Assembly: GCF_947497285.1 (NCBI RefSeq)
Contig: NZ_CANMFT010000001.1
Span: 620,001-684,000 of the forward strand
Direction: 5' to 3'
Source: an uncultured Aliiroseovarius sp.
GTDB taxonomy: Bacteria > Pseudomonadota > Alphaproteobacteria > Rhodobacterales > Rhodobacteraceae
DNA: 64,000 nt
In this document: in pieces, positions 59,388 through 64,000 of the stretch
Layout of the letters: each line of letters begins with the position of its first letter
Numbering within the stretch: the first letter of the stretch is position 1
The notes under the pieces: generated by a model
The model's database searches: none
What the model saw: only the letters and a program-made list of their open reading frames with translations
What the model was told of the DNA's origin: nothing
Made by a program: the position numbers and the translations under genes

Positions 59388-59477
59388 GGAGCGGTGGCCG
59401 AGTGGTCGAAGGCGCACGCCTGGAAAGTGTGTAGGCGGGGAACCGTCTCGAGGGTTCGAATCCCTTCCGCTCCGCCA
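59388..59477 (+). tRNA. tRNA-Ser (GGA)
   Basis: 90-nt class II tRNA. The acceptor GGAGCGG pairs with CCGCTCC, the anticodon loop is CTGGAAA with anticodon GGA, and the long variable arm (TAGGCGGGGAACCGTCTC) and the T arm (GAGGG-TTCGAAT-CCCTT) are intact. CCA is encoded at 59475-59477. tRNA-Ser genes are frequent island integration sites, and an accessory block starts downstream of it. Confidence 0.96.
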
Positions 59478-59503
59478 CTTGCCCTTGAGAAAGCGTTCTC
59501 CCG

Positions 59504-59526
59504 ATCCGGCTGCGGCCGGATTTTTC
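59504..59526 (+). terminator. Rho-independent terminator after tRNA-Ser
   Basis: ATCCGGC (59504-59510) pairs exactly with GCCGGAT (59515-59521) around TGCG, followed by five T. Confidence 0.85.
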
Positions 59527-59743
59527 CGTTGTTTTCGAGGGTTATGCACGAGGGGCTGTTCACCGGCCCCGGTGCGAAGAGGGCCCAAAGCGTTCTCTAC
59601 GGGCTGATATTCTCCGGACCTCATGACTACGCCGATTTGGTGAATTTCTTATAAGTCCATGTAAGATATAAAGAAAATCCAGCGTCGAAAATTGCTTGGA
59701 TTGAAGTCGCGTTTGCGTTTGTTGCGACCGGTTTCGGAATTTC
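59527..59743. other. Gap between tRNA-Ser and the restriction block
   Basis: No gene is seen. The stretch 59640-59700 is markedly AT-rich compared with both sides. No repeat of the tRNA 3' end is found here, so no attachment site can be marked. The metallopeptidase gene converges on this gap from the right. Confidence 0.5.
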
Positions 59744-60460
59744 TCAGGCCATGGCCCGTTCGAGCCTTTGCTTCCGACGCTCCCAATCGGGCATCACCTT
59801 GTCGAGAAGGTCAAAGAACGCCGCCCCGTGATGAGGCTCGGCCACATGGCAGAGTTCATGGGTGATCACGTAGTCAATGGCGTCGACAGGGGCCTGAACC
59901 AGACGACGATTGAGTAGCAAACGTCCGGCCGGTGACATGGACCCCCATCGCTGCCGGGTCTGGCGTACGATGAGACCCATCGGCCTGAATGCCTCGGGAT
60001 CCGGGAACAGACCGAGACAGAGTTCGATCCGTTCCGGAAACTTGATGTGGGCCCGCTCCCGGTACCATGCCTCGACCAGCTCGCGTGTCACCTCCGGCCT
60101 GGTCGGCCGGTGAGTCTGTACGACGATGAAGCCGCGGATCAGCTTCACGCTTTCCTGAACATGCGGGACGACCTTCAGCCGGTATTGGCGCCCAAGGTAG
60201 AGATGAGTCTCCCCGGCGACGAACCTGCGCTCCGGCGTGCGCGGCAGGAACTGGTAGAAGTACCGCTGCTGCCTTGTCACCCATGCCGCGCGCTTCCGCA
60301 GCTTGGCTTCGATGGCGTCTAGTGTCGCGTCCTCCGGGGCCGCGATCACCACCGACGCATCCGGCTCGACGGCGATCTCCAGTGTCTTCCTCGGGCGCCG
60401 GACAATCTCGTATTGGATCTCCTGCTCGCCGTACCGCAGGCAGTGCAACTCCCGTGTCAT
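59744..60460 (-). CDS. YgjP-like metallopeptidase (M48 type)
   Basis: 238 residues. The zinc motif is YVITHELCHVAEPHHGAAFF near residue 195 (HExxH with a third His four residues on), and MPDWERRKQRLE ends the domain, as in YgjP/WLM-type proteins. The N-terminal part (VRRPRKTLEIAVEPDASVVI, LRKRAAWVTRQQRYF) is the DUF45 domain. Genes of this family are often found within type I restriction operons, but no role is established. It starts inside the hsdR stop (4-nt overlap), so it is translated with it. Confidence 0.85.
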   Translation of the reverse strand: MTRELHCLRYGEQEIQYEIVRRPRKTLEIAVEPDASVVIAAPEDATLDAIEAKLRKRAAWVTRQQRYFYQFLPRTPERRFVAGETHLYLGRQYRLKVVPHVQESVKLIRGFIVVQTHRPTRPEVTRELVEAWYRERAHIKFPERIELCLGLFPDPEAFRPMGLIVRQTRQRWGSMSPAGRLLLNRRLVQAPVDAIDYVITHELCHVAEPHHGAAFFDLLDKVMPDWERRKQRLERAMA

Positions 60461-63400
60461 GCTGCGAACCGGGCCCGGGCAAGATCCATAATCTTGAGTT
60501 CGAGATCGTCGAGCACTTCTACGGGAAGGTCGATGTCCTTCTCGTCGCGCAGGACATCGAAGAAGTAGTCATCAATGGCGTTGCGCAGATTGTTCTGGGC
60601 CACCTCGTTCGACCAGATGTCCACGATCAGGTGCGATTTGATGATGTCGATGATCTGTTGTGCGATCGCTGCGACCTCGACGCCGGTCACGGGCTCATCG
60701 CCCTTGGTCTTGAGCTGACCATCCAGGACGCCGAAGAAGGCCTGAGCATCCTCATCGCCCCTAATGCTCTCCGGAACATCCCGCCCCCGATCCTTGCGGG
60801 CCACCTTGCTCGCGAGATCTACGACACTGTTCAGGTATTCGCGCTCCGAGAGCCGCTTTTCGCGGTAGGCCCGGATGGTTTCTTCGAGCAGCTCGGAGAA
60901 CTGTTTGTAGAACGTCGGGTCCTCATCCATCTTCTCGGTGATAGCCCGGCGGGTCGCGCTGGCGATGCGATCGGCCTTTGAAGCCTCGGAGACCCCGGTC
61001 TCTTCGACGACTGCCTTCAGAGCGTCGGGATCGTTGATGTTCACCACCTCGATGATGGTTTCCGCCGGCATCGCAACGACATGGTCATCCAGCAGTTTCT
61101 GGATTTTCGGTTCGAATTCGCGGACGTCCACCGTCTCCTGGTATCGAAGCTGGACAGACCGCTTCAGTTCAGAGAACTGCTTCCAGTCCCGCTTGAGTGC
61201 ATCGATCCTGGCCTCATCGAAGACATCGAACAGCTTGTCCGACGAGAGCGAAATATGCAGACACCGGCTGAAGGCTTTGAGGCGCGCGTAGAACTCGTGC
61301 CGCAGCGCCTCATCGGCGAGGTGCTGCTCGAACTGCTCCATGTCCTTCTTGTTCCGGACAGGCTTGAAAAGGTCCCAGAGCTGGTCGTGCAGCTGGGGCA
61401 GCTTGCGGATCTCCTCGCGGACGTCATGAACCGTTCCGGCGAGGTCGGCCGCCTCGTAGCCTTCGAAGGCGCTGTATGTCGTCAGCGCACTGTCCAGCTC
61501 GCCCAGCAGCCCCTCATAGTCGACGATGAAGCCGAACTGCTTCTCTGTGCCGCCGTCCTCATACAGCCTGTTCACGCGCGCAATTGCTTGCAGGAGGTTG
61601 TGCTCCTTCAAAGACTTGCAGACGTAAAGCACCGTGTTCCGAGGTGCATCGAACCCGGTGAGGAGCTTTGAGACGACGATCAGGATCTCCGGATCGCCGG
61701 AGCCCTTGAAGGCATCGATAATCTGGCGGTTGTACTCGTCCTCGGTTTTGTACTGCGCCATCATTTTCGACCAAAATTTCCGCACGAGATCCTTCGATTC
61801 CTGATCGACCTCCTCGTTGCCCTCGTTTTCGTCCGGCGGGGAGATAACAATGGCACTCGAGACGTGGCCGATCTCGTCGAGGACCTCCTTGAAGCGAACC
61901 GCCGCCGCCTTCGATGGCGCAACGAGTTGAGCCTTGAACCCGGTTCCCTGCCAGTGCTGGCGATAGTGCTCGGAGATGTCGAAGGCCTTTGCCCGAATGG
62001 CCTGGTCGGTCTTGGCCAGAGCGTCCATCCGAGAGAACTTACGCTTCAGATCGCGCTTCTGATTTTCGGTCAGCCCCTCGCTAATCTTGTCGAACCAGCG
62101 GTCGATCACGGCTCCCGAAACCTGCTGTTCGACAAGCCGCCCCTCGTAAAGCAACGGCACGACTGCGCCGTCAGCCACAGCCTCGTCGATGGCGTATCGG
62201 TGGATCAGCCGCCCAAAGGTAGAGAGCGTGTTCTTCTCCTTCTTGAGGAGAGGCGTTCCGGTGAATCCGAGATAGCAGGCCTTTGGCAGGAGGCGTTGCA
62301 TCTTGGCGGCGAACTGGCTGTGGCCGCCGTAGCGCCCTGTCTGCGTCCTGTGGCTCTCGTCGACCAGCACGAAGATGTTCGGATCGTCGTCCGCCAGTTT
62401 GCTATGCTTCAGCGCAGTGTCGAACTTGTTGATGATCGTGGTGACCAGCGGAGCCTTGTTCTGGACAAGCTCCAGTAGGTGAGACCCGCTCGTCGCACGG
62501 ACTGGCTCCAGATCGCAGGACTTGAAGGTGTCCTTGATCTGCTTGTCGAGATCGTCGCGGTCCGTGACGATGATGATGCGCGGGTTCTCGATGCTGCGTT
62601 CGAGGGCGAGCGATCTACCCAGCATGACCATTGTCAGCGACTTGCCTGAACCTTGGGTGTGCCAGATCACGCCGCCCTTGCGCGCGCCACTGATATCGTG
62701 CTGCTTGACCGTCTCGACCGCGCGGCAGATTCCGAAGAACTGCTGGTGGCGCGCGACCTTGCGAATGCCGCCATCGAATACGGTGAAGCGGCGGATGAGA
62801 TCGAGCAGCCGCGCGGGTCGGCACAGCGCGTACACCGTCCGGTCTTGAACCGTGACCGCGCGGTCTCCTTCTGTCTCCATTGAGTCGAAGTAGACGCGCG
62901 CGCCGACGAAGTCGCCAGAAAAGATCGAGTCTTTTTCCGCCGCCGCAAGGACGCGGTTGGCGAAGGGCTCGATGGCCTCGTCGGTGTCTTCCTCGTCGCG
63001 CCATTCGGCCCAGAATTTAGACTTGGTCCCGACCGTCGCATAGCGCGCGCTGTTGCGGTTCATAGAGACCAGCAGCTGGGCGAAGTGGAAGAGCTGCGGG
63101 ATGTTGTCTTCGTTCTGGTAGCCAATCAGCTGGCTGTCCGCCTTCTTCAGGCTTTCGGTCGGCCGCTTGTTTTCGATCACCAGGATTGGAATACCATTCA
63201 CGAAGGCAACGATGTCGCAACGCTTGGTCTGGCTTGACGCGGTCCTCTCCACCGAAAACTCGGCAGTCACATGGAAGACGTTGTTCTCAGGCTGGTCCCA
63301 ATCGATGTAGCGGAACGAGTAGCTCTTTGAGTCGCCGTCGATGGACTTTGTGATCGTCGTCCCGAGGACGAGCGTGTCGTAGATGTCCTGGTTCGTCCCA

Positions 63401-63672
63401 CGGAGCCCCTTCAGACGGTCCGGCGTGGGTTTGAGCCGCCGCATCGCCTCGTGCGCGTCCTCAAGGTCAAAGCTGTATTCTCTTCCCCGATGCGTGAAGC
63501 GGTTAATTCGCATCAGCTGGTCGGCAAGCACGTCATCCAGCACCACGTTCCGCAGGCGCCCGCCGCGCAGGCGAAACGCCTCCTCTTGTGAGAGCGGGGT
63601 GAACCCGAGCGCAACGAGCAACTGAAGCGCTGGAACTTGGGATTGGTGTTTTTCGGCGGCGTTGAAGGTCAT
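60457..63672 (-). CDS. hsdR: Type I restriction enzyme, subunit HsdR
   Basis: 1071 residues from ATG 63672 (MTFNAAEKHQSQ). An N-terminal nuclease core shows D153 (RCDIVAF) and E167-N-K169 (ILVIENKRP), a PD-(D/E)xK site. The SF2 motor has a Walker A at residues 339-345 (TQGSGKS), DESH at 438-441 and GFTGTP near residue 460; motif VI appears as LLQAIARVNRLYEDG. HsdR translocates DNA and cuts away from the recognition site when HsdM and HsdS find unmethylated DNA. Both partners must lie right of 64000. The longer frame to 63861 is not coding. It overlaps the upstream kinase-like gene by 4 nt. Confidence 0.95.
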   Translation of the reverse strand: MTFNAAEKHQSQVPALQLLVALGFTPLSQEEAFRLRGGRLRNVVLDDVLADQLMRINRFTHRGREYSFDLEDAHEAMRRLKPTPDRLKGLRGTNQDIYDTLVLGTTITKSIDGDSKSYSFRYIDWDQPENNVFHVTAEFSVERTASSQTKRCDIVAFVNGIPILVIENKRPTESLKKADSQLIGYQNEDNIPQLFHFAQLLVSMNRNSARYATVGTKSKFWAEWRDEEDTDEAIEPFANRVLAAAEKDSIFSGDFVGARVYFDSMETEGDRAVTVQDRTVYALCRPARLLDLIRRFTVFDGGIRKVARHQQFFGICRAVETVKQHDISGARKGGVIWHTQGSGKSLTMVMLGRSLALERSIENPRIIIVTDRDDLDKQIKDTFKSCDLEPVRATSGSHLLELVQNKAPLVTTIINKFDTALKHSKLADDDPNIFVLVDESHRTQTGRYGGHSQFAAKMQRLLPKACYLGFTGTPLLKKEKNTLSTFGRLIHRYAIDEAVADGAVVPLLYEGRLVEQQVSGAVIDRWFDKISEGLTENQKRDLKRKFSRMDALAKTDQAIRAKAFDISEHYRQHWQGTGFKAQLVAPSKAAAVRFKEVLDEIGHVSSAIVISPPDENEGNEEVDQESKDLVRKFWSKMMAQYKTEDEYNRQIIDAFKGSGDPEILIVVSKLLTGFDAPRNTVLYVCKSLKEHNLLQAIARVNRLYEDGGTEKQFGFIVDYEGLLGELDSALTTYSAFEGYEAADLAGTVHDVREEIRKLPQLHDQLWDLFKPVRNKKDMEQFEQHLADEALRHEFYARLKAFSRCLHISLSSDKLFDVFDEARIDALKRDWKQFSELKRSVQLRYQETVDVREFEPKIQKLLDDHVVAMPAETIIEVVNINDPDALKAVVEETGVSEASKADRIASATRRAITEKMDEDPTFYKQFSELLEETIRAYREKRLSEREYLNSVVDLASKVARKDRGRDVPESIRGDEDAQAFFGVLDGQLKTKGDEPVTGVEVAAIAQQIIDIIKSHLIVDIWSNEVAQNNLRNAIDDYFFDVLRDEKDIDLPVEVLDDLELKIMDLARARFAA

Positions 63673-64000
63673 TTTCCAGTCACCACGAATTGCTTGAAGC
63701 CCGCGACGAGCTTTTCCGCCTGCTTCTGGGTAAGACCCCGTTTGCAGAACTGAGTGACGCGCTGAGTATTTCCTGAGACCACATTGCGCTTGCTGCAGGT
63801 CACATCGAACTTCCCGCCTGCCACTGGCGAGACCGAGTGCGCGTACTCGTAGGTCCCGCACTTGCCGACCTCGTTGCCGGCCCCATCGACGGTCCAGTGC
63901 CCGGGGTAGTCCAGCTTTTCGAGCGCGCGTCGCATCTCAAGAGCGCTGGTGTACCGTTTGGCTGGATCAGAATGGACAGCCTTCAGGATGACGCGACGAA
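63669..64000 (-). CDS. C-terminal end of a probable Ser/Thr protein kinase, truncated by the window
   Basis: The frame is open from the right edge and ends at 63669, inside the hsdR start (ATGA overlap). The first visible residues, RRVILKAVHSDPAKRYTSAL followed by EMRRALEKL, match the last kinase subdomain of bacterial Hanks-type kinases (KAL-DP--RY-SA-EMR-AL). A tail of about 75 residues then follows, with three cysteines (EVGKCGTYEY, DVTCSKRNVV, VTQFCKRGLT) and ending FVVTGK; I do not recognise it. The catalytic loop lies outside the window, so the kinase call rests on about 30 residues. ATG 63935 would give a separate 88-residue protein, which is less likely given the open frame upstream. 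Confidence 0.5.
   Translation of the reverse strand, partial: RRVILKAVHSDPAKRYTSALEMRRALEKLDYPGHWTVDGAGNEVGKCGTYEYAHSVSPVAGGKFDVTCSKRNVVSGNTQRVTQFCKRGLTQKQAEKLVAGFKQFVVTGK

Follow-up and report, generated by a model that had tools for sequence, protein, structure and literature searches.

A RuvC-like protein and a Hanks-type kinase between hsdS and hsdR: a possible Stk-type abortive-infection module within a mobile type I restriction operon

Why does a gene for a Hanks-type protein kinase stand directly ahead of hsdR in a type I restriction operon? The question is raised by one end of a 64,000-nucleotide stretch of DNA from an uncultured Aliiroseovarius sp. (G000:C1:620001-684000, hereafter the window), where an initial annotation had described three minus-strand genes joined by 4-nt ATGA overlaps: the end of a frame with a Hanks-kinase C-terminal pattern and a cysteine-containing tail, hsdR, and a gene for a YgjP-type peptidase. 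It had proposed that the kinase could be a dedicated regulator of HsdR or could sense infection. The contig continues past the window edge, and the operon read there runs half-length hsdS, hsdM, hsdS, a gene for a 155-aa RuvC-like protein, the kinase gene, hsdR and ygjP. The two overlaps first described, kinase/hsdR and hsdR/ygjP, are indeed there, and the same ATGA arrangement is found at hsdS/RuvC-like and RuvC-like/kinase, making four junctions in all. Both hsdM and hsdS, for which a search beyond position 64,000 had been advised, lie upstream of the kinase; HsdR, HsdM and HsdS, the gene set expected of a type I system, are all present with catalytic motifs. The answer that we favour, with somewhat better than even confidence, is that the RuvC-like protein and the kinase form an abortive-infection module of the 933W Stk type, carried in a cargo slot of a mobile type I operon.

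The extended gene bears out the kinase prediction. It encodes a complete Pkinase domain (PF00069, E 5.9e-35) in which the catalytic residues are intact: K47, E61, H138, D140, K142, N145, D158 and G160 are invariant across all 25 aligned kinases. The expected HRD and DFG motifs read HND and DYG in the window kinase, whereas three prophage rows have HFD and DFG. Structural models of the kinase and of the RuvC-like protein were built on a representative locus, that of Pseudovibrio exalbescens (L055), whose RuvC-like protein is 99% identical to the window's. In the kinase model the tail, residues ~282-356, forms a beta-rich separate domain followed by a C-terminal helix, predicted with high confidence. 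The cysteines that had been singled out in this tail do not constitute a motif, as they are missing in several relatives, and a zinc/cysteine domain was rejected on the same ground. Foldseek matches of the kinase model were all kinases and showed no fold for the tail; some AMPK rows extend beyond the kinase domain (~390-470 columns), but with an rmsd of 22-23 Å. As a separate observation, giant kinases of ~1090 aa encoded on Rhodococcus plasmids (L010 7911-11171; L013 7962-11258) give a match that covers the tail region of the window kinase, and neither RuvC-like nor hsd genes are annotated near them in the two records looked at.

The gene ahead of the kinase encodes a protein that is modelled with a RuvC fold (pLDDT 92.8), the best 12 PDB matches of the model all being RuvC, with TM-scores of 0.75-0.79 by query length. 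An hhalign comparison against the RuvC encoded by the same genome gave no significant match (E 0.12 and 0.55). Support for the RuvC assignment therefore comes from the model, from the label that PHROG gives to the prophage homologues considered below and from a weak hmmsearch match (E 4.9e-4). RuvC itself carries catalytic acids at all three positions aligned to residues 7, 74 and 143 of this protein. The full set is absent from each of 38 aligned RuvC-like rows, in which two of the three positions are basic: position 7 is Arg throughout, Lys (26) or Arg (12) stands at position 74, and an acid is retained at position 143, Asp in 26 rows and Glu in 12. The register that sets Lys against Glu at position 74 is that of the hmmsearch alignment (E 4.9e-4), while the one that sets Arg against Asp at position 7 was obtained by extending, without gaps, an alignment that is itself not significant, and is less secure. 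Glu77 is conserved (37 of 38 rows, the other having Asp) and could partly make up for the lost acids. We infer a protein of RuvC fold that does not cut, and the basic residues at two catalytic positions suggest that it acts as a sensor. A tentative proposal is that this pseudo-resolvase would switch the kinase on after binding either phage DNA that is branched or undergoing recombination, or a phage protein produced along with such DNA.

The RuvC-like protein is a constant partner of the kinase. A pattern scan with the partner alignment over a genome collection in which each of 84,980 species is represented by one genome matched at least 80 stretches, giving at least 19 loci; among the matches listed, the kinase adjoins the RuvC-like gene in 19 of 19, and 15 have homologues of the operon's type I genes. 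The kinase-hsdR-ygjP unit is therefore not unique to this genome but recurs in others. The remaining four loci (Rhodanobacter L063, Oricola L066, Agrobacterium L071 and Thalassospira L072) have no type I homologues in the fetched stretch, and in the first of these the kinase identity is 87%. Plasmids of Klebsiella and Mesorhizobium and the Bacillus phage SPbetaL7 also carry the RuvC-like/kinase pair, with no hsd genes annotated nearby. The Klebsiella pair was matched in 223 of 5,426 E. coli genomes (221 of the matches cover at least 80% of the query), and a scan of IMG/VR viral sequences with the Klebsiella partner returned 37 loci, in every one of which the kinase follows directly with an overlap of a few nucleotides; in two of them, L022 and L028, the kinase match begins inside the protein.

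The family phrog_3875, labelled RuvC-like Holliday junction resolvase, includes the partners from Klebsiella and SPbetaL7. The window protein has no direct phrog_3875 match, and the prophage family is linked to it solely through profile comparison: hhalign of the type I partner family against the prophage partner family gave E 2.7e-5 and a probability of 74.6. On sequence the link is moderate, and it is strengthened by the shared gene order and residues. Within the window's own family the pair is rare, a search for the RuvC-like gene finding it in 5 of 394 genomes, and a class sample of 289 genomes gave, besides the genome itself, two weak RuvC-like matches (L004 and L005; 34-35% identity over ~68-78 aa).

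It is the relation to Stk that gives the pair a candidate function. The kinase matches phrog_2361 over residues 9-279 (E 4.2e-46), which places it in the same phage-kinase family as Stk of 933W. According to the sections on Stk in PMC3564112 and PMC6356687, the gene is co-transcribed with the repressor and its product aborts HK97 infection, the latter being also treated in part of PMC3681748. In a 933W-type immunity-region record stk is annotated, and a 153-aa RuvC-like ORF that overlaps its start is left unannotated; this neighbour was seen in the 933W-type record and not in the 933W genome itself. The two modules are alike in that a ~350-aa Hanks kinase with a C-terminal tail comes after an overlapping ~150-aa RuvC-like protein, and R7 and K/R74 occur in the RuvC-like protein of both. 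They differ in setting, as the prophage pair stands behind a repressor gene with no restriction genes beside it. The prophage versions could contain a third component, a 113-aa ORF between the repressor and RuvC-like genes that is alike by eye in L053 (858-1199) and L038 (3565-3906). Because of its kinship with 933W Stk, it is plausible that the window kinase senses infection.

What occupies the gap between hsdS and hsdR in related operons bears directly on how the kinase should be understood. Ten plasmid records have an HsdR at least 74% identical to the window's, and the kinase pair is present in one of them, from Novosphingobium (L008). The other nine slots hold TIGR04141 (3), DUF6119 (1), HAD (1), DUF3800 (1), Shedu with HAD (2) or Shedu with DUF3800 (1), and in the annotation all nine of these cargo genes have a 4-nt overlap with hsdR. 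Searching the 394 genomes of the window's own family yielded 12 others whose HsdR is full-length with an identity of 75% or more, of which 11 can be read beside hsdR, the locus in L092 stopping at a contig edge. Besides the window's own locus, three of the 11 carry the kinase pair; the other eight have DUF3800 (3), Shedu with HAD or DUF3800 (2), DUF4917 (2) or HAD (1). Two family loci, L097 and L098, duplicate the plasmid records L083 and L084. For the eight kinase-free loci, fetched with 1.5-kb flanks, the RuvC-like gene is also absent genome-wide at an E limit of 1e-10. Different cargo is found even beside the HsdR of L079, which is 97% identical to the window's; among more distant loci, hsdS abuts hsdR in L104 (HsdR ~50%), and the kinase pair is present in L105 (HsdR ~40%). 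An extra gene may also intervene between kinase and hsdR (DUF3800 in L062; DUF4917 in L069 and L070), and where the kinase directly precedes hsdR an overlap is usual but not universal, L008 having a gap. The kinase/hsdR overlap is a feature of the slot and is not specific to the kinase.

The peptidase gene behaves differently from the cargo, following hsdR in 30 of 30 HsdR-selected loci compared (28 distinct). These comprise 10 of 10 plasmid and 20 of 20 family loci (L090-L109), with or without the kinase; the family count leaves out weaker HsdR matches, and two of its loci duplicate plasmid records. YgjP belongs with the hsdR of this type I family and not with the kinase. The kinase pair consists of separate genes between hsdS and hsdR, has other genes in its place in relatives and is also found without hsd genes, as would be looked for in embedded cargo. 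PADLOC has families or candidates for several of the slot cargos (SduA, PDC-S34 and PDC-S21), and the kinase pair looks to be one of a set of back-up defences that can replace each other in the same slot. The interval between hsdM and hsdS is variable as well (L007 5706-6737; L009 7912-8862), holding RhuM, GIY-YIG/DUF4357 or nothing; the RhuM and GIY-YIG genes there are the PADLOC candidates PDC-S05 and PDC-S14.

Gene order, overlaps, constant pairing, catalytic residues, the modelled RuvC fold, type I-free copies and swapped slot genes are established here, and a mechanism can be sketched upon them in which sensing, targets and outcome are carried over from Stk. The type I enzyme would be the first line, cutting unmodified DNA, and phages that escape restriction would then be confronted by the embedded module. 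In that module the RuvC-like protein, which would have lost its cutting activity, would recognise a DNA structure or protein made by the phage; the kinase, latent until that point, would become active and phosphorylate host proteins, so that the infected cell stops before phage release. The gene overlaps would serve coupled expression and not regulation of HsdR.

Several results weigh against an Stk-type module. The window kinase shares ~23% identity with the prophage kinases, and between the type I and prophage kinases the tail is kept in length but hardly conserved in sequence. No Pfam, PADLOC, NCBIfam or PHROG match to the 155-aa protein was obtained at the limits used, and its sole phmmer match in the PDB is a capsid protein (E 0.0018), which we take as chance. 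The TIGR04141, DUF6119 and DUF3800 proteins tested (from L079, L080 and L084) had no PADLOC match. Finally, the module adjoins hsdR in all five carriers found among the 394 own-family genomes, and it has diverged in step with the type I genes: across 18 type I-linked loci kinase identity correlates with HsdR identity (rho 0.89, 153 pairs; 0.77 over the 78 pairs of the close clade), though less tightly than HsdM does (0.96; 0.95 in the close clade). Such co-divergence would also fit functional integration of the module with the restriction enzyme.

Adjacency to hsdR and co-divergence are the features that support the main rival, a PrrC-like guard in which the pair is silenced by the assembled type I enzyme and freed once the enzyme is inhibited or outpaced by a phage. 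There is a precedent in PrrC itself, which, according to the relevant part of PMC3874165, sits in a type I operon and is latent in complex. We nevertheless regard a guard as rather unlikely, since the pair is found without type I homologues nearby, even with a kinase as close as that of Rhodanobacter, and unrelated cargo occupies closely related operons. Tethering to the restriction enzyme cannot, given the type I-free pairs, be essential everywhere. The history of the module can be read from the kinase tree, for which 35 of 37 rows were used and in which several deep branches are long: the type I label requires four changes, three of them forced by well-supported branches. Taken with the identity correlation, this makes it probable that type I operons gained or lost the module on more than one occasion, but for the most part it has been inherited with them. 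In four close pairs dN/dS is 0.03-0.14 for hsdM, hsdR, ygjP and both module genes, which indicates that module and type I genes are under selection.

The proposal made in the initial annotation, that the kinase phosphorylates HsdR to switch restriction while YgjP removes HsdR, draws on the position of the kinase immediately before hsdR, on the ATGA overlap and on the intact catalytic residues. We now consider it improbable, and less likely than either an Stk-type module or a guard. Related HsdRs, up to the 97% identical one of L079, sit alongside other cargo, that cargo shows the same overlap, and the kinase pair occurs in prophages and on plasmids without HsdR or other hsd genes; the swapped cargo, and the attachment of YgjP to hsdR whatever the cargo, make a dedicated HsdR-regulating kinase unlikely. 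We give equally little credence to an addiction or toxin-antitoxin pair stabilising a mobile island, with a toxic kinase restrained by the RuvC-like protein: a small gene does stand directly ahead of a potentially toxic enzyme, and the pairing is constant and the contexts mobile, but to our knowledge a RuvC fold is not typical of antitoxins.

Returning to the Stk-type module, its placement has parallels among known systems. Defences embedded in type I operons are already known from PrrC (PMC3874165) and from TgvAB and RloF (PMC11411939, PMC12409362), to go by the portions of these papers that describe them. TgvAB resembles the window pair as a two-gene defence among the hsd genes of a type I operon, an arrangement that is likened there to RloF between hsdR and hsdS, but it is a modification-dependent restriction pair and not a kinase pair. 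EcoprrI, described in PMC3874165, likewise has a second-line gene triggered by infection within its type I operon. The product of that gene, PrrC, is an anticodon nuclease, unlike the window kinase, and the likeness is one of description. MADS (MAD6 kinase, MAD2 methylase and MAD5 specificity subunit) also brings a kinase together with type I-like M and S subunits, and MAD6 is the best PADLOC match of the kinase (136.8 bits); the window operon differs in having a standard HsdR and a RuvC-like partner. Membership of MADS was rejected, the MAD6 score being 133 against an NCBIfam cut-off of 460, as was membership of BREX, for which the PglW score was far below the cut-off. PD-T4-6, a Hanks kinase with a proposed phage-defence role, gave PADLOC matches of up to 132.7 bits. 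It is a one-gene system, in contrast to the constant two-gene pair found here. Among the open-licence papers listed by literature searches, none dealt with a kinase/RuvC-like pair in a type I operon or with a RuvC-like protein as constant companion of Stk, which argues only weakly that such work does not exist.

The coordinates of the features considered are collected in Table 1. The GTG start of HsdR in the list of open reading frames (1134 aa) is mechanical, and the start taken here is the coupled ATG.

Table 1. Features of the operon and its flank; plain coordinates are those of the window, and others are labelled.
Feature	Coordinates	Strand	Remarks
tRNA-Ser(GGA)	59388..59477	+	3' end toward operon; 266 nt to ygjP stop; possible island insertion site
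ygjP, YgjP/SprT-like zinc metallopeptidase, 238 aa	59744..60460	-	HELCH; PF01863, E 3.1e-52
hsdR, type I restriction subunit, 1071 aa	60457..63672	-	D..ENK nuclease, GSGKS and DESH motifs present
Kinase gene, 3' part, coding C-terminal beta-rich tail	63669..64000	-	Window portion of 358-aa Hanks-type kinase gene
Whole kinase gene, 358 aa	Window-equivalent 63669-64745 = G000:C1:683669-684745	-	Read beyond window
RuvC-like gene, 155 aa	G000:C1:684742-685209		Outside window, before kinase
Half-length hsdS, 196 aa	L002 11898-12488 = G000:C1:687897-688487		Before hsdM; full hsdS also after hsdM

A homologue of the half-length hsdS is present in 14 of 15 type I-linked genome loci. Upstream of the operon lie a small ORF, which has a weak ParB-like match in L002, a serine recombinase gene and a DUF2924 gene. 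The DUF2924 and serine recombinase genes are seen upstream at L002 12572-14750, L006 2420-4221, L061 57-1768 and L064 2167-3938, and this region is likely to be a mobility module. Two of the related operons are altered. That of P. exalbescens (L055 6985-7776) retains the C-terminal half of HsdM only (residues 242-505) and has no half-hsdS match, so modification there may be broken. In Halovulum marinum (L060 422-9207) hsdR is split, with its C-terminal part inverted beyond the hsd genes and a short stretch shared, as if a segment had been flipped by a recombinase or by assembly.

At its other end the operon faces the tRNA-Ser gene that the initial annotation had placed beside it, which we located at 59388-59477. 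A tRNA-Ser is present in four of 23 related loci scanned. The distance from the ygjP stop to its 3' end is 266 nt in the window, L055 and L061, 250 nt in L058 and 2,788 nt in L059. The 266-nt spacing falls within the spans 59388-59744 of the window, L055 14467-14822 and L061 11028-11383, with GGA or GCT anticodons, and its identity in three loci suggests that tRNA-Ser is the insertion site of the island. No attachment direct repeat of at least 14 nt was found at the tRNA-Ser in five fetched stretches.

These findings connect Stk, a classical kinase of phage exclusion, with a partner left unannotated in a 933W-type record, place a related pair inside type I operons, and show that in one type I family the space between hsdS and hsdR accepts different, partly defence-related genes. 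Two questions are thereby made testable, namely what the activator of Stk is and whether an embedded defence needs the restriction enzyme of its host operon. If the sensor reading of the RuvC-like protein is true, then the pair would belong to a hitherto unrecognised sensor-kinase class of abortive-infection systems, of which 933W Stk would also be a member and whose transfer into type I operons would have given these a second line of defence.

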